The notes below the pieces were generated by a model. The model was not told the origin of the DNA. It saw nothing but the letters and a program-made list of their open reading frames with translations, and did not search any database. A DNA stretch of 64,000 bases from an uncultured Eubacteriales bacterium. GTDB taxonomy: Bacteria; Bacillota; Clostridia; Christensenellales; Aristaeellaceae. Below, piece by piece: positions 1,197 to 11,454 of this stretch; the first letter of the stretch is position 1; each line of letters begins with the position of its first letter. The stretch spans positions 1 to 64,000 of the forward strand of contig CACXHB010000030.1 in NCBI GenBank assembly GCA_902767315.1, given 5' to 3'. The translations under genes and the position numbers were made by a program.

Positions 1197-2264
1197 ATGA
1201 AGAAGCTTCTGTCTGCACTGCTGGTTGTCGCCATGCTGCTGATGGGCGCCGCGGCCTTCGCCGAGGACACCTTTGAGATCGCGCTGGTTACCGACGTCGG
1301 CAACATTGACGACCAGTCCTTCAACCAGAGCGCCTGGGAAGGCGTGGTGGAATTCGCTGAGGCCAACGGCTACACCAAGGCCTACTATCGTCCTTCCGAG
1401 GACTCTACCACCGCTCGCATGGAGAGCATCAAGACCGCCGTTGAAAAGGGCGCGAAGGTCATCGTGTGCCCCGGCTACCTGTTCGAAGAGGCCATCTACA
1501 ACGTTCAGGACGAGTATCCGGAAGTGAACTTCCTGCTGCTGGACGGCGAGCCCCACAACGCGGATTATTCCGATTATAAGACCGGCTCCAACGTGCACAA
1601 CATCCTCTATCAGGAGGAGCAGGCCGGTTACCTGGCCGGTTACGCCGCCGTGAAGGACGGCTACACCAAGCTGGGCTTCCTGGGCGGCATGGCCGTTCCC
1701 GCCGTTATCCGCTATGGCTACGGCTTCGTGCAGGGCGCGGACGCCGCTGCTGCCGAGATGAACGAGCAGATCGAGATCAAGTACTGGTACTGCGGCGCTT
1801 TCTCTCCCTCTGACGACATCAAGGTGAAGATGAGCGGCTGGTATTCCGAGGGCACCGAGGTTGTCTTCTCCTGCGGCGGCGGCATTTACCTGTCTGCCTG
1901 CGCGGCGGCCGAAGAAGCCGGCGCCAAGGTCATCGGCGTGGACGTGGACCAGTACTACGTATCCGACACCGTGATCACCTCCGCCATGAAGGAGCTGAAG
2001 CACTCCGTGGTGCTGGCTCTGACCGATCTGTACGCCAACGATTGCGTGTGGCCCGAGGCTTATGCCGGCACCACCGCCACCCTGGGCGCCGCCGACAACT
2101 GCGTTGGTCTGCCCACCGCTGACACCTCCTGGCGTCTGAACAACTTCACTGTGGAAGAGTACGAGCAGCTGTTCGAGGCCATCAAGTCCGGCGAAATCGT
2201 TGTTTCCAACGACACCACCGAGGCCCCCGCTGTGACCAATTCCACCGTGGACTATCAGGAATAA
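1197..2264 (+). CDS. BMP-family nucleoside-binding protein of an ABC importer
   Basis: A 355-residue extracytoplasmic substrate-binding protein of the basic membrane protein (BMP/PnrA/NupN) family, which binds purine or pyrimidine nucleosides. Residues 1-21 form a signal peptide (MKKLLSALLVVAMLL, then GAAAFA-ED), followed directly by the family signature LVTDVGNIDDQSFNQSAWEG. KLGFLGGMAVPAVIRYG matches the usual ligand-cleft region. The start at 1197 is preceded by AGGAGG; the reading frame extends further upstream without a ribosome site. It is the first gene of an operon with ATPase and permeases. Unlike most Gram-positive BMP proteins there is no lipobox cysteine in the signal peptide, so it may be cleaved by signal peptidase I and not lipid-anchored. 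Confidence 0.92.
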   Translation: MKKLLSALLVVAMLLMGAAAFAEDTFEIALVTDVGNIDDQSFNQSAWEGVVEFAEANGYTKAYYRPSEDSTTARMESIKTAVEKGAKVIVCPGYLFEEAIYNVQDEYPEVNFLLLDGEPHNADYSDYKTGSNVHNILYQEEQAGYLAGYAAVKDGYTKLGFLGGMAVPAVIRYGYGFVQGADAAAAEMNEQIEIKYWYCGAFSPSDDIKVKMSGWYSEGTEVVFSCGGGIYLSACAAAEEAGAKVIGVDVDQYYVSDTVITSAMKELKHSVVLALTDLYANDCVWPEAYAGTTATLGAADNCVGLPTADTSWRLNNFTVEEYEQLFEAIKSGEIVVSNDTTEAPAVTNSTVDYQE

Positions 2265-2277
2265 TTTCCCGATTTTC

Positions 2278-2307
2278 CGAGGGGCCGGGCAACTGCCCGG
2301 CCCCTCG
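2278..2307 (+). terminator. Strong GC hairpin between binding protein and ATPase genes
   Basis: A perfect 14-base inverted repeat (arms 2278-2291 and 2294-2307) starts 13 bases after the BMP stop codon. There is no U-tract, so it more likely acts as an mRNA-stabilising or partial-termination element giving excess binding protein over the transporter than as a full terminator. The downstream genes have no obvious promoter of their own in the 113-base gap. Confidence 0.65.
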
Positions 2308-2420
2308 GGATGCAGACGGAACCTTTTCGGATGCTTCCCATACAGAGCAGATCGAATTTTTCCCGGCCGCGGGCCGGTTGATTAACGGGGCGCGTCCCCG
2401 CAGCGGAGAGGAATGGAGCC

Positions 2421-3953
2421 ATGAGCGATTATGTCATTGAGATGCTCCACATAACCAAGGAATTTCCGGGCATCAAGGCCAACGACGATATTACCCTGCA
2501 ATTGAAAAAGGGAGAAATCCACGCGCTGCTGGGCGAAAACGGCGCGGGCAAGAGCACGCTGATGAGCGTGTTGTTCGGCATGTACAAGCCGGAAAAGGGC
2601 AGGATTCTCAAAAACGGCCAGGAGGTCAAAATCAACGACCCCAACGACGCCAACGCCCTGGGCATCGGCATGGTGCACCAGCATTTCAAGCTGGTGGAGG
2701 TCTTCTCCGTGCTGGACAACATCATTCTGGGAGCGGAGGACACCCGGGGCGGCTTCCTTTTGAAGAAGGAGGCCCGGCGCAAGGTGATGGAACTCAGCGA
2801 GCGCTACGGCCTGCGGGTGGATCCGGACGCGAAGATCGAAGATATTTCCGTGGGCATGCAGCAGCGGGTGGAGATTCTGAAAATGCTCTACCGGGACAAT
2901 GAGATCCTCATTCTGGATGAGCCCACCGCCGTTTTGACCCCCCAGGAAATCGACGAGCTGATGGAAATCATGCGCTCCTTTGCCAGGGAGGGCAAGTCCA
3001 TTCTGTTTATTACCCACAAGCTCAACGAGATCATGGCCGTGGCGGACCGGTGCACGGTGCTGCGCAAGGGTAAGCTCATGGGCACGGTGGAGATTCAGAA
3101 CACCACCAAGGAGGAGCTTTCCCGGATGATGGTAGGCCGGGATGTGAACTTCGTGGTGGAGAAAAAGCAGCAGAAGCCCGGCGACGTGGTGCTGAGCGTG
3201 CGGAATTTTTCCGTGAAAAGCCGCGTGCACAAAAACGATGCGGTGAAAAACGTTTCGCTGGACGTGCGGGCGGGAGAAATCGTGTGCCTGGCGGGCATCG
3301 AGGGCAACGGCCAGACGGAATTCATTTCCGCGCTGACGGGGCTGGAAAAGGCCCGCAGCGGTCACGTAACGCTCTGCGGCAAGGACATTTCCAAGGCCAG
3401 CATTCGCCAGCGGAGCATCGCCGGCATGAGCCACGTGCCGGAGGATCGGCATAAGCATGGCCTGGTGCTGGATTACACCCTGGCGGAGAACATGGTTTTG
3501 CAGAAATACTGGCAACAGCCCTTCCAGAAGCATGGATTTATCCAGTTTGGCGAGGTGCGGCGCTACGCCGAAAGGCTCATCGAGCAATACGACGTGCGCA
3601 GCGGTCAGGGGGCGGACACCATCGTGCGCTCCATGTCCGGCGGCAACCAGCAGAAGGCCATTGTGGGCCGGGAAATCGACACCGATTCGCCGCTGCTGGT
3701 GGCGGTGCAGCCCACCCGCGGTTTGGACGTGGGCGCGATTGAATACATTCACCGGCAGATCGTGGGCCAGCGGGACGCGGGCAAGGCGGTTTTGCTGGTT
3801 TCCCTGGAGCTGGACGAGGTAATGAACGTTTCGGACCGGATTCTGGTAATGTACGAAGGCGAAATCGTGGGCCAGTTCGATCCCCATGAGATCACCGTGC
3901 AGGAGCTGGGGCTTTACATGTCCGGCGCGAAGCGGCAGGAGGTGCTTTTGTGA
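2421..3953 (+). CDS. Nucleoside ABC importer, double ATP-binding subunit (NupO-like)
   Basis: A 510-residue protein with two fused ABC ATPase domains, which powers uptake of the nucleoside delivered by the upstream binding protein. The first domain has Walker A GENGAGKST near residue 40, a variant signature SVGMQQRVE, and Walker B ILILDEPTAVLTP. The second has the degenerate GIEGNGQTE in place of Walker A, signature MSGGNQQKAIVGRE, and LLVAVQPTRGLDVG in place of the usual DEPT. This asymmetric pattern is normal for the RbsA/NupO/MglA class. A GGAG site precedes the ATG at 2421. The end overlaps the first permease by 4 bases (GTGA), implying translational coupling. Confidence 0.93.
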   Translation: MSDYVIEMLHITKEFPGIKANDDITLQLKKGEIHALLGENGAGKSTLMSVLFGMYKPEKGRILKNGQEVKINDPNDANALGIGMVHQHFKLVEVFSVLDNIILGAEDTRGGFLLKKEARRKVMELSERYGLRVDPDAKIEDISVGMQQRVEILKMLYRDNEILILDEPTAVLTPQEIDELMEIMRSFAREGKSILFITHKLNEIMAVADRCTVLRKGKLMGTVEIQNTTKEELSRMMVGRDVNFVVEKKQQKPGDVVLSVRNFSVKSRVHKNDAVKNVSLDVRAGEIVCLAGIEGNGQTEFISALTGLEKARSGHVTLCGKDISKASIRQRSIAGMSHVPEDRHKHGLVLDYTLAENMVLQKYWQQPFQKHGFIQFGEVRRYAERLIEQYDVRSGQGADTIVRSMSGGNQQKAIVGREIDTDSPLLVAVQPTRGLDVGAIEYIHRQIVGQRDAGKAVLLVSLELDEVMNVSDRILVMYEGEIVGQFDPHEITVQELGLYMSGAKRQEVLL

Positions 3954-5050
3954 ACAAGCGTGGTTTGGTCAACGTAGCGGCGTCCATCATCTCCATACTC
4001 CTGGGCATGCTCTTTGGCTTTATTCTGCTGGAAATTTTCAATCCTTCGGCGGCGCTGAACGGATTAAACAACATTCTGACCACCGGCCTGCGCACGCCGG
4101 AGAAGTTCGGCAAGGTGCTTTACACCGCCGCGCCCCTTTTGATGACGGGCCTTTCCGTGGGCTTCGCCTTCAAAACCGGTCTGTTTAACATCGGCGCATC
4201 CGGCCAGTATACTGTGGGCGCGTTCTTCGCGCTGGTGGCGGGCATTCAGTTTGGATTGCCCTGGTACGTGTGCATTCTGGCAGCCATGGTGGGCGGCGCC
4301 ATCTGGGGGGCGATTCCCGGCCTGTTCAAGGCATTTTTCAACGTCAACGAGGTTATTACCGCCATTATGTTCAACTGGATCGGCCTTTTCGGCGTGAACC
4401 TGGCTTTGAACAACATGCCCAAAATGCTGGCCAGCTTCTGGGGCGCACCTTATAAAAACAAGACCGCGGCCATCAGCGCCGCCAACAAATCCGCCCTGCT
4501 GCCCAAGCTGGGGCTGGACGAGGTGCTGAATTCTCCCTACATTAATATCGGCATTTTCATCGCCATCCTTTTTGCGATCATCACCTGGGTGGTGCTGAAC
4601 CGGACCACCTTCGGCTACGAGCTGAAGGCCTGCGGCTACAACCGCAACGCCAGCCAGTACGCGGGCATCAACGCCAAAAAGAACATCGTGCTTTCCATGG
4701 TGATTGCCGGTGCGCTCTCCGGCGTGGGCGGCGCGCTTTACTACCTGAGCGGCACGGCGCAGTACGTCATTGAAAAGACGCTGCTGGGCATGGGCTTCAA
4801 CGGCATTCCCGTGGCGCTGCTGGCTTCCTCCAATCCTCTGGGCACCATTTTCTCGGCCATGTTCATTTCCTACATTCAGGTGGGCGGCGACGCGCTGCAG
4901 CCACAGTTTGCCAAGGAGATTATCGACATTATCATCGCCGTGATTATCTACCTCAGCGCCTTCTCGCTGCTGATTCGGGAAATCATCACCCGCGTGGGCG
5001 CGAAAAAGCACGCATTGCAGGAAAATGGAAAGGGGGCAGACGCCAAATGA
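3950..5050 (+). CDS. Nucleoside ABC importer, permease subunit 1 (NupP-like)
   Basis: A 366-residue multi-span membrane protein of the BPD_transp_2 (RbsC-like) class. It starts at GTG 3950, overlapping the ATPase stop by 4 bases. The motif GFAFKTGLFNIGASGQYTVG (about residues 67-86) is the conserved signature of nucleoside-type permeases, and GYELKACGYNRNASQYAGIN (about 222-241) is the cytoplasmic coupling segment contacting the ATPase. There are roughly nine to ten hydrophobic spans. It should form a heterodimeric channel with the next gene product. Confidence 0.92.
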   Translation: MNKRGLVNVAASIISILLGMLFGFILLEIFNPSAALNGLNNILTTGLRTPEKFGKVLYTAAPLLMTGLSVGFAFKTGLFNIGASGQYTVGAFFALVAGIQFGLPWYVCILAAMVGGAIWGAIPGLFKAFFNVNEVITAIMFNWIGLFGVNLALNNMPKMLASFWGAPYKNKTAAISAANKSALLPKLGLDEVLNSPYINIGIFIAILFAIITWVVLNRTTFGYELKACGYNRNASQYAGINAKKNIVLSMVIAGALSGVGGALYYLSGTAQYVIEKTLLGMGFNGIPVALLASSNPLGTIFSAMFISYIQVGGDALQPQFAKEIIDIIIAVIIYLSAFSLLIREIITRVGAKKHALQENGKGADAK

Positions 5051-6120
5051 TGCTTCTTGCGGATATTCTTTCCTCCACGCTGCTGTTCGCCATTCCGCTA
5101 TTGCTGGTGGCACTGGGCGGCATGTGCTCGGAGCGCAGCGGTATTATCAACATTGCCCTGGAGGGCGTGATGATTATCGGCGCGCTGATCAGCTGCCTGA
5201 TTCTGGGCCAGCTGAACAACGCCTATCAGACGGCCTGCAAAATGCTGGAGGCGGGGGAGGGCCTGTCCGGATGGTGGGCGCTTGTCTACCGGCTGATTCA
5301 CGACGCGCCCCAGCTGGCGGTGTTTGCGGCGATTCTGGCCGCGGCGCTGGCGGGCGTGCTGTACTCGCTGCTTTTGGCCTTTGCCTCCATTAACCTGATG
5401 GCGGATCAGACCATCGGCGGCACGGCGCTGAACATGCTGGCTCCCGCCTTTGCGGTGGTGCTCACCTGGGCGATTCAGGGCCAGGGCAATACCACCATTC
5501 TGATTCCCAACTGGACGCGAATCACCGTGGAATCCTCCGGCGCGGTTTATGGCGCGGGCTTTGGCCAGAGCGTGCAGGCGTTTTTCGAGAAATTCCTGTT
5601 CAAAAGCATGTATCTGACCACGCCCATCGCTATCGTGCTGCTGATCGCGGTTTCGGTGCTGATTTATAAAACCCGGCTGGGGCTGCGGCTGCGGGCCTGC
5701 GGCGAACATCCTCAGGCGGCGGATTCCGTGGGCATCAACGTGTACAAAATGCGCTATATCGGCGTGTGTATTTCCGGATTCCTGGCGGGCATCGGCGGCC
5801 TGGCCTTCACGGTGGCGGCCGGTTCCGGCTTCCAGTCCACGGTGGCGGGCTACGGCTTTTTGGCTCTGGCGGTGATGATCTTCGGCAACTGGAAGCCCCT
5901 GAGCATTCTGGGCGCATCCCTGTTCTTCGCCTTTTTCAAGATCATTGGCTCCTACAGCTCCTCCATTCCCTTCCTGCCCAGCTTCGAAGGGGTGAAGTCC
6001 AGCGAATATATTTATCTGATGCTGCCCTACCTGGTGACCATGATTCTGCTGGTGCTGACCAGCAAAAAATCCCGGGCGCCCAAGGCGGAGGGCATTCCCT
6101 ACGACAAATCCACCCGATAA
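5047..6120 (+). CDS. Nucleoside ABC importer, permease subunit 2 (NupQ-like)
   Basis: A 357-residue membrane permease starting at ATG 5047 inside the stop of the previous gene (ATGA overlap). GGMCSERSGIINIALEGVMI (about residues 18-37) is the counterpart of the signature in subunit 1, and GLRLRACGEHPQAADSVGIN (about 213-232) is the ATPase-coupling loop. It completes a four-gene operon: binding protein, double ATPase, permease, permease. This order matches the Bacillus nupNOPQ guanosine/nucleoside system, so nucleosides are the likely cargo. Confidence 0.92.
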   Translation: MMLLADILSSTLLFAIPLLLVALGGMCSERSGIINIALEGVMIIGALISCLILGQLNNAYQTACKMLEAGEGLSGWWALVYRLIHDAPQLAVFAAILAAALAGVLYSLLLAFASINLMADQTIGGTALNMLAPAFAVVLTWAIQGQGNTTILIPNWTRITVESSGAVYGAGFGQSVQAFFEKFLFKSMYLTTPIAIVLLIAVSVLIYKTRLGLRLRACGEHPQAADSVGINVYKMRYIGVCISGFLAGIGGLAFTVAAGSGFQSTVAGYGFLALAVMIFGNWKPLSILGASLFFAFFKIIGSYSSSIPFLPSFEGVKSSEYIYLMLPYLVTMILLVLTSKKSRAPKAEGIPYDKSTR

Positions 6121-6125
6121 ACACA

Positions 6126-6152
6126 GGGGCTGCCGAATTTCGCGGCGGCCCC
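6126..6152 (+). terminator. Hairpin at the end of the nucleoside importer operon
   Basis: Inverted repeat GGGGCTGCCG / CGGCGGCCCC with one mismatch around a 7-base loop, located 5 bases after the last permease stop. There is no real U-tract, so termination strength is uncertain. Confidence 0.5.
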
Positions 6153-6237
6153 AACCTTTGGTTTTCGCGGAATTTTCATGGAACAACCTGGGAAAAACTG
6201 CGTCTAAAGGACAAATCCCATAAGGAGGAAAAGGGCA

Positions 6238-9200
6238 ATGAAGAAAAGGTTCGCGGCGCTTCTGACAGCGGTGTTGCTTTGCCTGTCGTGCACAGGCCTG
6301 GCGGACGTCGTGGTTCAGAACGATCATATTTCCGCCTATCTGGACAGCACCGGCGGCGTAATCCTTACCGGATACGATACCAGGATCAACGCCACGGATG
6401 CCTACACCCTGGTGGCCATCGACGCCACGCGGGTGGTGTACCTGGTGGAGACGGGCACAGACGGAGTTTATAATCTGGTCTGCGCCGATTTTGCCACCTC
6501 TACGGAAACCGTTATGGCCCAGGGCGTGACCCTGGCATGCGGTTACGGCGGCGAAGGCATCTATTTCGTCACCGCCCAGGAGCCTGCCAAGGTGCAGTAT
6601 CTCACCTATGGCGGTGCGCTGAAGGAAATCTATTCCTCGGAAGAAAACGTGGAGGATTTGCAGATTTCCTATCACGGGCTGATGATTTGCTTTGCCCAGG
6701 ACGCCGGCGCGGTGGTGCTGGACGGCACCTTCGGCATGGTCAGCGAATTCAACGGCCAATTGGGCGTGGAACGCCGGGTTATGAACGGCAAAGATCTGAT
6801 CCTGACCGCCAGCGGCGATCTGTATCTGGACGATCCCACGCAGATTTTTACCTCTAAAATCGCCGGAGACGTGGATCAGTTTGAGACCATGGACGGCTAT
6901 GTTTATTACATTACCGAAGCCAAGGAAGGCCGGGTGCTGCGGCAGTATTCCCCGGACACCCTTTCCTGGCAGGACGTGAACATGAACGGCCTGGGCCAGC
7001 CCCAGTGCCTCACCGCCAGTTACGACCAGGCGCTGGTCATGGCCGACACGGGCAAGGTTTACGCCATTCGCGGGGAAAGCTGCACGGTGACGGAATTTGC
7101 CACGGTGACGGTGCCCCAGGGCGTGGACATGAAAAACGTGTCCATCCGCGGCGTCAGCGGCCAGTTGAACGTGTACGCTCAGGAGCCTGAGGACGCGGGA
7201 TATGTGCTGGCCTTCAACTTCAATTTTGTTTCCGATTCCGGAAACGGCATCTACGACGAGGCGGCTCAGGCCAACGAGAAGACCAAGATCACCCTGCTGG
7301 CCATGACGCCCCTGTCTTCGGAAATCAATACCTTTGATATTCTCACCCCGGCCCGGAAGTATCAGGTGCTCAGCTACGGCAGCCGCGGCGACGCGGTGAG
7401 CGAGCTGCAGCAGGCGTTGACGGATCTGGGATACCTCAACGACAAGGTGGACGGCATTTTCGGGCCCCGCACCCGTTACGCCGTGCGGCTTTTCCAGGAT
7501 TTCAACGGCTTTAAGGTGACGGGCATTGCCGACAAGGACACCCAGGAATACCTGTTCGACGGCAATCCCCCGGTATACGACAAGTATCGCCAGATTTCCT
7601 ATGGCGCCCGCGGCCTGCGGGTGACCGAGATGCAGGAACGGCTGCGTTACCTGGGCTACATGGCCGACCCGGCCGACGGCATTTACGGCCCCTACACCCG
7701 GGAAGGCGTGCGCCTGTTCCAGGAGGAAAACGGCCTGAACCAGAGCGGCGTGGCGGACGCGAAAACGCTGAAGGCCATCTACAGCGTCACCGCTCCCAAG
7801 TGCTCTTCCTATTTTGAAATGAATTACGGCGACAGCGGCTGGCGGGTTCGTGCCATGAACCGGCGGCTGAAGGAGCTGTATTATCTGGAAGGCACCGCCG
7901 GCTCCACCTACAATTCCGCCACCAAGGCCGCCGTGAAGCTGTTCCAGCGGGAGTGCGGCATGGTGCAGAGCGGCGTTGCCAGCGCTTACATGCAGCAGAA
8001 GCTGTTCTCCCGGAATGCGCCTACCTACAGCGGATATATCACCCTGCGCCGCGGCGACAACAACGACCGTGTGGCCGAACTGCAGCGGCGGCTGCGGGAT
8101 CTGGGATATCTGGACAGCGGCGACGTGGACGGCTATTATGGCCGCAGAACCGCGGCGGCGGTGAAGGAATTCCAGAAGATGGCGGGCCTGCCCATTACCG
8201 GCGTGGCCGATCCGGTGACCCAGGAGCTGCTCTTCGGTCCGGACGCGCCCTATAAGCCCGTGATTGCGGAAATCTCCGCGCCCAAGTTCTACATTTCCAA
8301 TTATTCCGACGAGACTCAGCCCGGCCGTTATACGGTGAACGAGGGCAGCGTGACCATCGGCTGGCAGGTAACCGGATCGGTGGACGGATATTATATGGAA
8401 ATCACGGACGGCTCCGGCTGCCTGGTGCGCAACGGCTATCTGTACGACACGGAAATCAAGCTGGACGTGACGGCTCTGCATGCCAACGAGGCCTATACCA
8501 TCACCATTTCCGCCATTCCGGAAAACGGCACCATGAAGAACGCCAAGACCAGCTCCATTACCATCGTGACCCCCGTGCGGGAAGAGCCGACGCCTGAACC
8601 GACCCCGGTGCCCACGCCGGAGGTGCTGCCCACCGTGGAGCCTACGCCCACGCCGGAAGTGACCCCCGTGCCGCCGGTGGACGTTCCTGTAATCAGCGTA
8701 AGCGGCGATTACGCCATGGATGGCAACGTGTACGTGGTGGGCGCGGAAGGCGCGCGCTTTGCCTGGACCCGCGTTGAGGGCGTAAGCTACAATCTGACGC
8801 TGAAGGACGCGGAAGGCAACGCAGTGAAAACCCTGGAGGACGTGTCCGACAACTTCGTGACGCTCCAGTCCGCCGACCTGACCGAGGGCGTGACCTACAC
8901 GCTGGAGGTGCGGGCCTATTACACCGGCACCGACGCAAATGCGGGTCGTGCCACCAACATTCAGCTGACCGCGGCTTCCACGCAGCCGGATCCCACCGAG
9001 CCTCCGGCCACGGAAGCGCCCGTGCAGCCCATCGTCATCAACATCACCGTGATTAACGCCGACAAGATTGGCGACACCTGGTATCTGGGTCAGGACGCCC
9101 GGGTAGAATGGCAGGCGGACGGCGATGTGAAGGATTACAGCGTCGAAATGATCGACGGCCAGGGCAACGTGCTCAGCGGCGAATATAACACGGCGGAAAT

Positions 9201-11454
9201 GGCCATGAACGTGGACGAAAACGCCATGGTCCCCGGCGAAACCTACGGATTGCGCATCACGGCCAACGGCGAGGGCGAAACGGTGGACGAAACCGTCTAC
9301 CTGGCCGCGCCTGAGGAAGCGACTCCCGAACCCACTCAGGAGATTACGCCCGAACCTACGGAAGCGGTAACGGAAGAGCCCACCGTGGAACCCACGGAAG
9401 AGCCTACCGTGGAACCGACGGAGGAGCCTACGCCCGAACCGACGGAGGAGCCTACGCCTGAACCCACGGAGGAGCCTACGCCCGAACCCACGGTCGAGCC
9501 CACGCCCGAACCCACAGTCGAGCCGACGCCCGTGCAGGTGCAGGTAACGGTGGACGACGCGACGCTGGCGGACGATGTGTATTACATCGGCGAGGAAACC
9601 ACGGCGCTGATTTCCTGGAGCAGCACCGGCGAGGCCACCAGTTACACCCTCTATCTGAAGGATGCGGAGGGCAACGTGCTGCAGCAGGCGGACAACACCG
9701 AATATACAGCCATGTACATGGCGGGCGCGAACCTGCCGGAAGGCAATGTATACAGCGTGACCGTAGTGGCCCACGAACCCAGCGGCGATGTGGAATCTAC
9801 GATCTATATCGCGCGGGCGGCGGCCCAGACGGAAGCCCCTGCCGAACCCGCGAAAGCTCCCGCAGAACAGAACCCCGAAGTTACGCCGGAGCCTGTGGAA
9901 GAACCGGCGCACACCGTAAGCCAGCCCACGGTCAACGTGGAAAATTACGCCAATTTCGACGGCAATGTCTACTGGATTGACGGCGACAGCGTGACCATTA
10001 CCTGGAGCACGGAAGGCGATCTGGCTTACTACAACGTGTACCTTTACGGCGCGGACGGCACGATGATCAATTCCGCGGCGGAGGTTACCACCAATTCCCT
10101 GAACCTGAATGCCGGCGCCTTTGAGGCGGGCAGCGTTTACACCCTGACGATCTGCGCGGTGCCGGTGGACGGCACGGAGGAAACCGGCGCTTCTGCCAGC
10201 GTGAATCTGGCCAAGGCCGCCCAGCAGCCCACGGAACCGGAGATTACCCCCGAACCCGAGCAGCCCGCGGAACCGGAGATTACCCCCGAACCCGAGCAGC
10301 CCGCGGAGCCTGTGTACAACGTGAGCGCACCGGTGGTGAACATCGAAGGCAGCGACGCATACGACGGCGTAAACTGCGCATTCACTGGCGATTTGAGCGT
10401 CAGCTGGTATGCGGAGGGCGACGTGGGAAGCTATGACCTGTATCTGTATGATCAGGACGGCAATGTGGTTTCACAGGCGGCCGGCGTAACCCAGACCAGC
10501 GTGAACCTGGCGGCGGACAACTTCGCCGAGGGCGCGGCGTACACCCTGGAAATCGTGGCGATTCCGGTAAACGGCACGGCTGAAAACGGCGCGTCCACCC
10601 GGATTACCCTGACCCGCACGGCCCCGGCTCAGCCGGAACAGCCTGCGGAACCGGAGATCACCCCCGAGCCCCAGCAGCCCGCGGAGCCTGTGTACAACGT
10701 GAGCGCACCGGTGGTGAACATCGAAGGCAGCGACGCATTTGACGGCGCATATTGCACTTTCAGCAATGATCTGAGCGTCAGCTGGTATGCGGAGGGCGAC
10801 GTGGGAAGCTATGACCTGTATCTGTACGATCAGGACGGCGATCCCCTGTCGCAGGTGAACGGCGTGACCCAGACCAGCATGAACCTGGCGGCGGACAATT
10901 TCGCCGAGGGCGCGGCGTACACCCTGGAAATCGTGGCGATTCCGGTAAACGGCACGGCCGAAAACGGCGCGTCTACCCGGATCACCCTGACCCGCACGGC
11001 TCCGGCTCAGCCGGAACAGCCTGCGGAACCCGATTATACCGAACCGGAACAGCCCGCGGAACCTGATTATACCGAACCGGAACAGCCCACCGAGCCCGAT
11101 GATTCTGAGCCCGACTATTCCGAGCCGGTGCAGCAGGGCATGTGGGATACGCCCATGGACGGTACTTCCGATTGGGAGAAGATTTCCAACTATCAGCGCA
11201 AGCTGGTGGAATGGGGCTGGATGAGCTTCGAGGGTGAAGGCGCGGCCACGGAAGGTGTGTTCGACCAGACCACCATGATTGCCACCCGGAACCTGCAGGA
11301 GTACATCAACAGCCTGTATGTGAGCGATTCCGGATTTGTGCCGCTGGAGGTCATTGATCTGAACGCAGACGCGCCGTATGTGGGCGTGGATACCCTGCAG
11401 ATGATCATGCCCGATACCGCAACGCAGACCTTCGTGAATCCCGACATGATGTAA
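6238..11454 (+). CDS. Giant exported protein: peptidoglycan-binding modules, Ig-like repeats and Pro/Glu/Thr linkers
   Basis: A 1738-residue secreted or wall-associated protein. A signal peptide ends near residue 22 (GLA-D). Residues about 25-340 look like a beta-propeller (repeated short strands such as TRVVYLVETG). Four PG_binding_1 modules follow at roughly 373-440, 450-516, 525-590 and 598-668; each has an LGYL.. and DGIFGPRT-like core, with the third degenerate. About seven Ig/fibronectin-like modules fill 680-1590, separated by linkers rich in PTPEPTEEPT (notably 1028-1098). The C-terminal 90 residues resemble another peptidoglycan-binding fold. No catalytic domain or LPXTG anchor is visible, so wall attachment through the binding modules is inferred. 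An AAGGAGG site precedes the ATG. It may act in adhesion or wall architecture; the true function is unknown. Confidence 0.85.
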   Translation: MKKRFAALLTAVLLCLSCTGLADVVVQNDHISAYLDSTGGVILTGYDTRINATDAYTLVAIDATRVVYLVETGTDGVYNLVCADFATSTETVMAQGVTLACGYGGEGIYFVTAQEPAKVQYLTYGGALKEIYSSEENVEDLQISYHGLMICFAQDAGAVVLDGTFGMVSEFNGQLGVERRVMNGKDLILTASGDLYLDDPTQIFTSKIAGDVDQFETMDGYVYYITEAKEGRVLRQYSPDTLSWQDVNMNGLGQPQCLTASYDQALVMADTGKVYAIRGESCTVTEFATVTVPQGVDMKNVSIRGVSGQLNVYAQEPEDAGYVLAFNFNFVSDSGNGIYDEAAQANEKTKITLLAMTPLSSEINTFDILTPARKYQVLSYGSRGDAVSELQQALTDLGYLNDKVDGIFGPRTRYAVRLFQDFNGFKVTGIADKDTQEYLFDGNPPVYDKYRQISYGARGLRVTEMQERLRYLGYMADPADGIYGPYTREGVRLFQEENGLNQSGVADAKTLKAIYSVTAPKCSSYFEMNYGDSGWRVRAMNRRLKELYYLEGTAGSTYNSATKAAVKLFQRECGMVQSGVASAYMQQKLFSRNAPTYSGYITLRRGDNNDRVAELQRRLRDLGYLDSGDVDGYYGRRTAAAVKEFQKMAGLPITGVADPVTQELLFGPDAPYKPVIAEISAPKFYISNYSDETQPGRYTVNEGSVTIGWQVTGSVDGYYMEITDGSGCLVRNGYLYDTEIKLDVTALHANEAYTITISAIPENGTMKNAKTSSITIVTPVREEPTPEPTPVPTPEVLPTVEPTPTPEVTPVPPVDVPVISVSGDYAMDGNVYVVGAEGARFAWTRVEGVSYNLTLKDAEGNAVKTLEDVSDNFVTLQSADLTEGVTYTLEVRAYYTGTDANAGRATNIQLTAASTQPDPTEPPATEAPVQPIVINITVINADKIGDTWYLGQDARVEWQADGDVKDYSVEMIDGQGNVLSGEYNTAEMAMNVDENAMVPGETYGLRITANGEGETVDETVYLAAPEEATPEPTQEITPEPTEAVTEEPTVEPTEEPTVEPTEEPTPEPTEEPTPEPTEEPTPEPTVEPTPEPTVEPTPVQVQVTVDDATLADDVYYIGEETTALISWSSTGEATSYTLYLKDAEGNVLQQADNTEYTAMYMAGANLPEGNVYSVTVVAHEPSGDVESTIYIARAAAQTEAPAEPAKAPAEQNPEVTPEPVEEPAHTVSQPTVNVENYANFDGNVYWIDGDSVTITWSTEGDLAYYNVYLYGADGTMINSAAEVTTNSLNLNAGAFEAGSVYTLTICAVPVDGTEETGASASVNLAKAAQQPTEPEITPEPEQPAEPEITPEPEQPAEPVYNVSAPVVNIEGSDAYDGVNCAFTGDLSVSWYAEGDVGSYDLYLYDQDGNVVSQAAGVTQTSVNLAADNFAEGAAYTLEIVAIPVNGTAENGASTRITLTRTAPAQPEQPAEPEITPEPQQPAEPVYNVSAPVVNIEGSDAFDGAYCTFSNDLSVSWYAEGDVGSYDLYLYDQDGDPLSQVNGVTQTSMNLAADNFAEGAAYTLEIVAIPVNGTAENGASTRITLTRTAPAQPEQPAEPDYTEPEQPAEPDYTEPEQPTEPDDSEPDYSEPVQQGMWDTPMDGTSDWEKISNYQRKLVEWGWMSFEGEGAATEGVFDQTTMIATRNLQEYINSLYVSDSGFVPLEVIDLNADAPYVGVDTLQMIMPDTATQTFVNPDMM
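9330..9535 (+). repeat. Low-complexity repeat encoding PTPEPTEEPT-type linker
   Basis: About 200 bases of tandem near-copies of a 12-15 base unit coding for alternating Pro, Thr and Glu, inside the giant exoprotein gene. It encodes an extended acidic linker, is a likely site of replication slippage, and should vary in length between strains. Confidence 0.8.
10303..11035 (+). repeat. Two near-identical tandem 378-base repeats encoding Ig-like modules
   Basis: The segment beginning GCGGAGCCTGTGTACAAC at 10303 recurs at 10681, an offset of exactly 378 bases (126 codons). The copies agree over nearly all of their length, including synonymous positions, differing mainly around 10361-10400 versus 10739-10778 and around 10465-10485 versus 10843-10863. 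Synonymous-site identity points to a recent duplication or ongoing gene conversion. Confidence 0.88.

Follow-up and report, generated by a model that had tools for sequence, protein, structure and literature searches.

A lineage-specific, putatively wall-binding exoprotein of uncultured Clostridia with an ECF-type promoter shared by an anti-sigma factor gene

Introduction

The window, a 64,000-nucleotide stretch of DNA from an uncultured member of the Clostridia, encodes a predicted exoprotein in which peptidoglycan-binding (PG) and Ig-like modules are joined in a combination that a preliminary description of the locus, made from the sequence, did not recognise. The locus raises the question of what such a protein does for its host, and when it is made. 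Literature searches for the domain combination returned nothing on point, and no instance of the full architecture with a known function was found; it occurs in many uncultured relatives for which the literature searched gives no function. These hosts are uncultured gut and rumen Clostridia, the envelope biology of which is essentially unstudied.

Domain architecture of the exoprotein

The exoprotein gene (6238–11454, + strand, stop included), delimited from the list of open reading frames and the family alignments, starts with an ATG, has a Shine-Dalgarno sequence close by upstream (AAGGAGG; 6222–6228, + strand; direct reading of the sequence), and runs for 1738 codons without interruption. 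A Shine-Dalgarno sequence was also found upstream of nearly all relatives of the gene. The frame, the order of its domains, and the numbers of modules are found again in more than 20 relatives, and therefore do not reflect chance or a prediction artefact; with its start codon, ribosome-binding site, Pfam domains, and relatives, the 1738-residue exoprotein put forward in the preliminary description is real. A 1604-aa open frame lies antisense to the gene (window 5098–9912, − strand), with long antisense frames in relatives too, and appears to be a by-product of GC-rich codon use.

All features of the protein are encoded on the + strand. A predicted signal peptide (~residues 1–22; 6238–6303), judged from a basic start and a hydrophobic stretch that are conserved in relatives, is followed by a predicted beta-propeller (residues 23–361; 6304–7320) and by four tandem PG_binding_1 modules (residues 375–444, 450–519, 525–594, and 600–670; 7360–7569, 7585–7794, 7810–8019, and 8035–8247), which were detected with both Pfam (3e-67; 223 bits compared to a cut-off of 23, residues 375–670) and an HMM built for this analysis. 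The same two approaches delimited seven FN3/Ig-like modules (Pfam fn3, seven stretches, 2.4e-26) at residues 681–768 (8278–8541), 816–902 (8683–8943), 933–1018 (9034–9291), 1100–1187 (9535–9798), 1229–1316 (9922–10185), 1364–1450 (10327–10587), and 1490–1576 (10705–10965), where about seven had been described. The last two are 87% identical over 95 aa, which identifies module 7 as a recent duplicate of module 6 and suggests that the stalk grew by duplication. Sequence reading further placed a PTPEPTEEPT-type linker at residues 1019–1099 (9292–9534), for which the PF04886 ‘PT’ repeat is slightly under its cut-off, and an acidic Pro-rich linker of EPEQPAEPDYTEP repeats (10966–11157) ahead of a C-terminal module (11155–11451). 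PG module 3 and the C-terminal PG module are degenerate.

Structure prediction for residues 1–670 from a 21-sequence alignment (mean pLDDT, 86; pTM, 0.52, so that the arrangement between domains is uncertain) returned a beta-propeller at ~23–361 (AlphaFold2 model m3a8b5be7e75c; block pLDDT about 80–93), then four small helical modules. The best solved match to the propeller (Foldseek) was 3s25, a 7-bladed propeller from Eubacterium rectale, and VIA-align comparisons to propellers reached a Z of up to 19. PF16472 (DUF5050) matches 10 of 21 relatives at this position but not the window protein, and the exact number of blades is not proven. Residues 23–361 are thus confidently predicted to form a DUF5050-like beta-propeller, in agreement with the earlier reading.

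No catalytic family was detected in the exoprotein with Pfam or NCBIfam, as the preliminary description had noted, so that the protein is not a peptidoglycan hydrolase of the SleB kind; NCBIfam gave sub-threshold matches only, through the PG modules. An LPXTG or LPXTA motif was absent from the last 60 residues of all 26 family proteins taken as complete, despite the five sortases encoded in the genome that carries the window, and Pfam detected no SLH domain in the exoprotein. The signal peptide, the 4 + 1 PG-type modules, and the lack of LPXTG and SLH fit the proposed fixation to the wall by the binding modules. To judge from what is known of their family, the PG modules would bind peptidoglycan; in some cases, modules of the PG_binding_1 type bind wall polymers of other kinds, or show no demonstrable binding.

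The C-terminal domain (~1640–1738), described previously as a final binding-like domain, is without a Pfam match in the window protein, though PF01471 occurs at this place in 16 of 19 relatives and a profile-profile comparison (hhalign) to the four upstream PG modules gave a probability of 97%. The domain is confidently modelled as three-helix (pLDDT, 90), and its top PDB match is weak (Foldseek E, 2.0) and falls on the Zn DD-peptidase 1lbu, an enzyme with an N-terminal PG-binding domain. Because the structural matches are weak, the assignment rests on sequence profiles, by which the domain is a divergent fifth PG_binding_1 module. Accordingly, the four PG_binding_1 modules of the preliminary description stand as the tandem array, and the PG-type modules number five in all, placed on both sides of the Ig stalk.

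This layout makes the earlier suggestion of a surface stalk, adhesin, or scaffold too loose, as the PG modules bracket the stalk and no dockerin, cohesin, or enzyme-docking domain was found; modules at both stalk ends argue against a free-ended adhesin. A surface adhesin or display stalk would be anchored by the PG modules, with the Ig stalk lifting a C-terminal ligand-binding tip away from the cell, and under the ECF-type promoter described below it would be niche-responsive. The succession of PG modules, Ig stalk, and tip is the usual adhesin layout, the number of Ig copies varies, and the linkers evolve fast, all of which agree with this possibility, but the tip has a PG_binding_1-like fold in most relatives, making the wall a more plausible ligand than the host, and the propeller, the other candidate ligand binder, is located on the side of the PG array nearer the wall. 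The C-terminal PG module was not recognised in some relatives (e.g. L095, L087, L122), which weakens the two-anchor reading and leaves room for a free-ended stalk. Overall, an adhesin is considered unlikely.

Distribution of the family and gene neighbourhood

Of 150 genomes sampled from the same bacterial family, 28 gave strong matches to the exoprotein family (E ≤ 1e-150, alignment-based search), and a single-sequence search recovered the N-terminal domain in 24. No relative emerged when contigs were scanned with the N-terminal sequence by itself, while the alignment-based scan did find relatives. Outside the bacterial family, no match was found among 297 genomes sampled at order level and 391 at class level (thresholds of 1e-60 and 1e-90). 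The relatives belong to uncultured Clostridia, including Candidatus Pullichristensenella, Faecivicinus, and Faecaligallichristensenella, and are 51–59% identical to the window protein in the PG modules and 25% in the propeller. Four tandem PG modules are present in the family members examined, where the sequence is long enough, and most members possess 3–7 Ig copies, with none of the Ig modules recognised in a distant branch (L121, L114). On the basis of these searches, the exoprotein family is conserved and lineage-specific.

Shorter proteins (about 650–710 aa) consisting of the propeller and two to three PG modules (G048:C48, G040:C492, G076:C71, G023:C141, and G031:C6) are a wider superfamily without the long stalk. 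The genome of the window also encodes several further PG_binding_1 proteins, some with Pro-rich linkers (L039 on C60, L038 on C37, and L041 on C154).

Within the window, the exoprotein gene lies between a BMP/nucleoside-type ABC transporter (upstream) and a LysR gene (downstream), neither of which travels with it in relatives; a functional link to the ABC operon was rejected, as the synteny is not conserved. In a rumen clade (genus g17) the gene is divergent from spoIIIA, with spoIIIAA as its neighbour, and in other clades it occurs beside dinB and/or ssb. As the neighbours are not conserved, the gene stands alone, and clues to its regulation must come from the sequence upstream of it.

An ECF-type promoter upstream of the exoprotein genes

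A motif scan identified a candidate ECF sigma-factor promoter, GGAAC-N16-CGTCTAA, at 6180–6207 (+ strand), ending 30 nt before the ATG; it is the only match in the 64-kb window, with 0 expected in shuffles. Comparison of the upstream regions of the family revealed the form GGAAC-(16 or 17)-CGTC, mostly CGTCTAA, ending about 20–60 nt before the start codon, and the exact motif (GGAAC-N16/17-CGTC) precedes 40 of 45 family genes compared to 0.13% of shuffled sequences. Identity among the 17-nt spacers that separate the two boxes is only 30%, so that the boxes are conserved against a saturated background, and the promoter is kept although the adjacent genes differ (spoIIIA, dinB/ssb, or, in the window, the BMP-type transporter). 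Five genes lack the exact motif: the sequence is masked in L088, the -35 box is weakened in L077, L078, and L080 (genus g32 or its near relatives), and L082 has no site. Judged by its two-box form, the element is an ECF-type promoter. A constitutive sigma-A promoter was considered and rejected; good candidates are present in some relatives (e.g. L111, L102, and L085, about 90–130 nt upstream), but inconsistently so, and the window scores 7/12.

In the genome of the window, the relaxed pattern (CGTCNAA) returned 16 sites compared to 12 for the reversed control, indicating that relaxed sites are mostly chance, and the strict pattern returned 3 compared to 2, which is not significant in one genome; the evidence for the promoter therefore rests on its conservation across species. 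Across 12 genomes that carry the exoprotein gene, there were 41 perfect sites (reversed control, 8), compared to 1 in four genomes without the gene (reversed control, 5).

Two relaxed sites in the genome of the window precede exported proteins. The genome's only SLH match, an exported YcdB/YcdC-repeat protein on contig C123 (L175, about 2120–4200, + strand), has GGAAC-N16-CGTCAAA 31 nt before its start, and a second relaxed motif (L176; C82:20936–20963, − strand) lies directly before an exported protein with SH3-like sequence and may mark a regulon member or be due to chance.

The sigma/anti-sigma pair and other targets

Of the three perfect sites in the genome of the window, one lies upstream of the exoprotein gene, one on contig C134 between the genes of an ECF sigma and a zf-HC2 anti-sigma, and one before the gene of a 39-aa membrane protein (contig C99). 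The ECF sigma gene (L173:939–1655, − strand) adjoins the anti-sigma gene (L173:188–892, − strand), which is of the zf-HC2/DUF4349 type; the anti-sigma has a zf-HC2 domain, one transmembrane segment, and an outer domain that differs between clades. On C134, the sigma gene extends at its 3′ end into the -35 box of the anti-sigma promoter, and in most relatives the whole anti-sigma promoter is coding, contained in the last codons of the sigma gene and ending exactly at the sigma stop codon.

When anti-sigma genes were found by profile, and hence without bias toward the motif, a perfect site was present upstream in all 15 readable cases from genomes bearing the exoprotein gene (10 of 30 loci were not placeable by a zinc-finger regex), and the -10 box of the anti-sigma site was changed in 4 of 5 readable cases from genomes without the exoprotein. 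Two sigma-gene codons within the site, CTT and TTT (9% and 35% usage), were invariant in 10 of 10 sequences and were not fixed by the search pattern; as these 10 sites were chosen by the exact motif, GAA is fixed by that selection and only CTT and TTT count. Of the 28 genomes that encode the exoprotein, 23 have the anti-sigma (E ≤ 1e-24), compared to 21 of the 122 that do not, a contrast that is inflated because the genomes are phylogenetically related and the co-occurrence is not independent evidence.

The exoprotein and anti-sigma genes are the only two targets that recur across genomes, and the remaining targets with a well-placed start encode mostly exported or membrane proteins. Together, these comparisons provide good support for a regulatory link between the exoprotein and the ECF sigma system, in which the adjoining ECF sigma would be the factor that reads the exoprotein promoter. 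Four genomes of genus g39 (G038, G072, G097, and G117) possess the exoprotein, but an anti-sigma of this type was not detected in them and no SpoIIIAA exceeds the cut-off; one of these (G038) has a recognisable promoter site despite the missing anti-sigma, such that another regulator may read the site in this genus. A perfect motif was also observed before an exported protein of caspase-like appearance in a genome without the exoprotein (L184; G024:C2:59303–59331).

The pairing of targets also allows for the exoprotein as a feedback or gauge component of the circuit, in which the wall-bound protein, probably through its propeller, would touch the outer domain of the anti-sigma and report the state of the wall. 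That these are the only shared targets, and that both proteins are extracytoplasmic, would suit such a role, but no common domain or docking motif was found between the two, some genomes have one without the other, and the outer domain that would be touched varies between clades, all of which render a gauge improbable.

A role in sporulation, with the protein in the cortex or intermembrane space, was suggested by the position beside spoIIIA and the SleB-like PG modules, and SpoIIIAA is present in all ten genomes of at least 90% completeness with a strong single-sequence match; yet the exoprotein occurs in genus g39 without SpoIIIAA, its neighbours are unrelated in clades other than g17, sporulation sigma motifs (sigma-E/F/G/K) are not enriched upstream of the family genes, and the conserved promoter is ECF-type. 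The g39 genomes and the unenriched motifs indicate that the exoprotein is probably not specific to sporulation, and this role is considered highly improbable. A surface scaffold without catalytic function, on which wall enzymes or exoenzymes would be gathered, as might be imagined from the many repeated non-enzymatic modules and the propeller, a common protein-binding fold, is equally hard to credit, given that Pfam and NCBIfam detected no cohesin, dockerin, or other enzyme-docking domain in the exoprotein and that no enzyme gene is conserved beside its gene in relatives.

Proposed function and related systems

Sequence evidence establishes the domain architecture of the exoprotein and its family, as well as its promoter and the presence of that promoter at a sigma/anti-sigma pair. 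An ECF-type promoter common to the exoprotein and anti-sigma genes points to an inducible role in envelope stress, and the exoprotein is probably an envelope-stress-induced, secreted, non-catalytic cell-wall protein that braces the wall like a strut or covers it. In the proposed mechanism, the membrane anti-sigma would hold the ECF sigma inactive until an envelope signal, as expected from what is known of such families, frees the sigma for transcription from GGAAC-N16/17-CGTC. The two targets common to the genomes would then be the anti-sigma, providing negative feedback, and the exoprotein, which after export would grip peptidoglycan with the tandem array of four PG_binding_1 modules toward its N-terminus and with the fifth module at its C-terminus. 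By bridging the two anchors, the FN3/Pro-rich stalk, variable in length, would make the protein a strut or cover, and the propeller, next to the N-terminal anchor, would bind a partner. Bridging or covering of the wall under stress is suggested by the layout, with anchors at both ends of the stalk.

A stronger and more speculative version, held only tentatively and with doubt, is that of a minimal, lineage-specific ECF circuit with one giant, two-ended ‘wall staple’ made on demand as its main conserved output. Known envelope-stress regulons act through new synthesis or chemical modification; here, non-covalent cross-bridges would mend or strengthen the wall by mechanical means. If the exoprotein does cross-bridge the wall, this would constitute a mechanical answer to envelope stress, unlike the known ECF outputs of wall synthesis and wall or membrane modification. 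The parts are of known kinds; what appears to be new is how they are combined, that the combination is confined to one lineage, and that it is a main output of a small ECF circuit. An odd multi-domain protein is thereby turned into a testable pathway of one sigma, one anti-sigma, and one giant wall protein, and the promoter motif offers a direct route to listing the envelope-stress genes of the lineage.

Among known systems, sigma-E of Streptomyces coelicolor recognises the promoter xGGAAC-N16-CGTCT, and over half of its targets concern the cell envelope (PMC6767563). The exoprotein promoter is of nearly the same type, but where the S. coelicolor regulon is large and includes wall synthesis, the system described here has few perfect sites per genome, with a giant wall-binding protein and the anti-sigma as the common output. 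S. coelicolor sigma-E is also controlled differently. In Thermoanaerobacter tengcongensis RpoE1/TolB, the anti-sigma is encoded directly downstream of the sigma and has one transmembrane segment and an N-terminal sigma-binding part, and CGTC in the -10 region is needed for recognition by RpoE1 (PMC3397946). The downstream position of the anti-sigma, its single transmembrane segment, a putative N-terminal sigma-binding part, and the CGTC in the -10 region are shared with the present system, which differs in that the T. tengcongensis anti-sigma has a TolB-annotated outer domain and the sigma gene is autoregulated there, whereas here a zf-HC2 anti-sigma carries a DUF4349-like outer part, the promoter lies at the 3′ end of the sigma gene, and the propeller belongs to a separate target, the exoprotein. 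SleB-type and endolysin PG_binding_1 proteins possess the same PG-binding module family, through which the NCBIfam spore_SleB model was matched, but the exoprotein scores 195.8 compared to a cut-off of 236.5, has no hydrolase domain, and carries four tandem modules and one distant module. Likewise, DUF5050 propeller proteins (PF16472; PDB 3s25, Eubacterium rectale) share the propeller fold and an origin in gut Clostridia, and differ from the exoprotein, where wall-binding modules and a long stalk follow the propeller.
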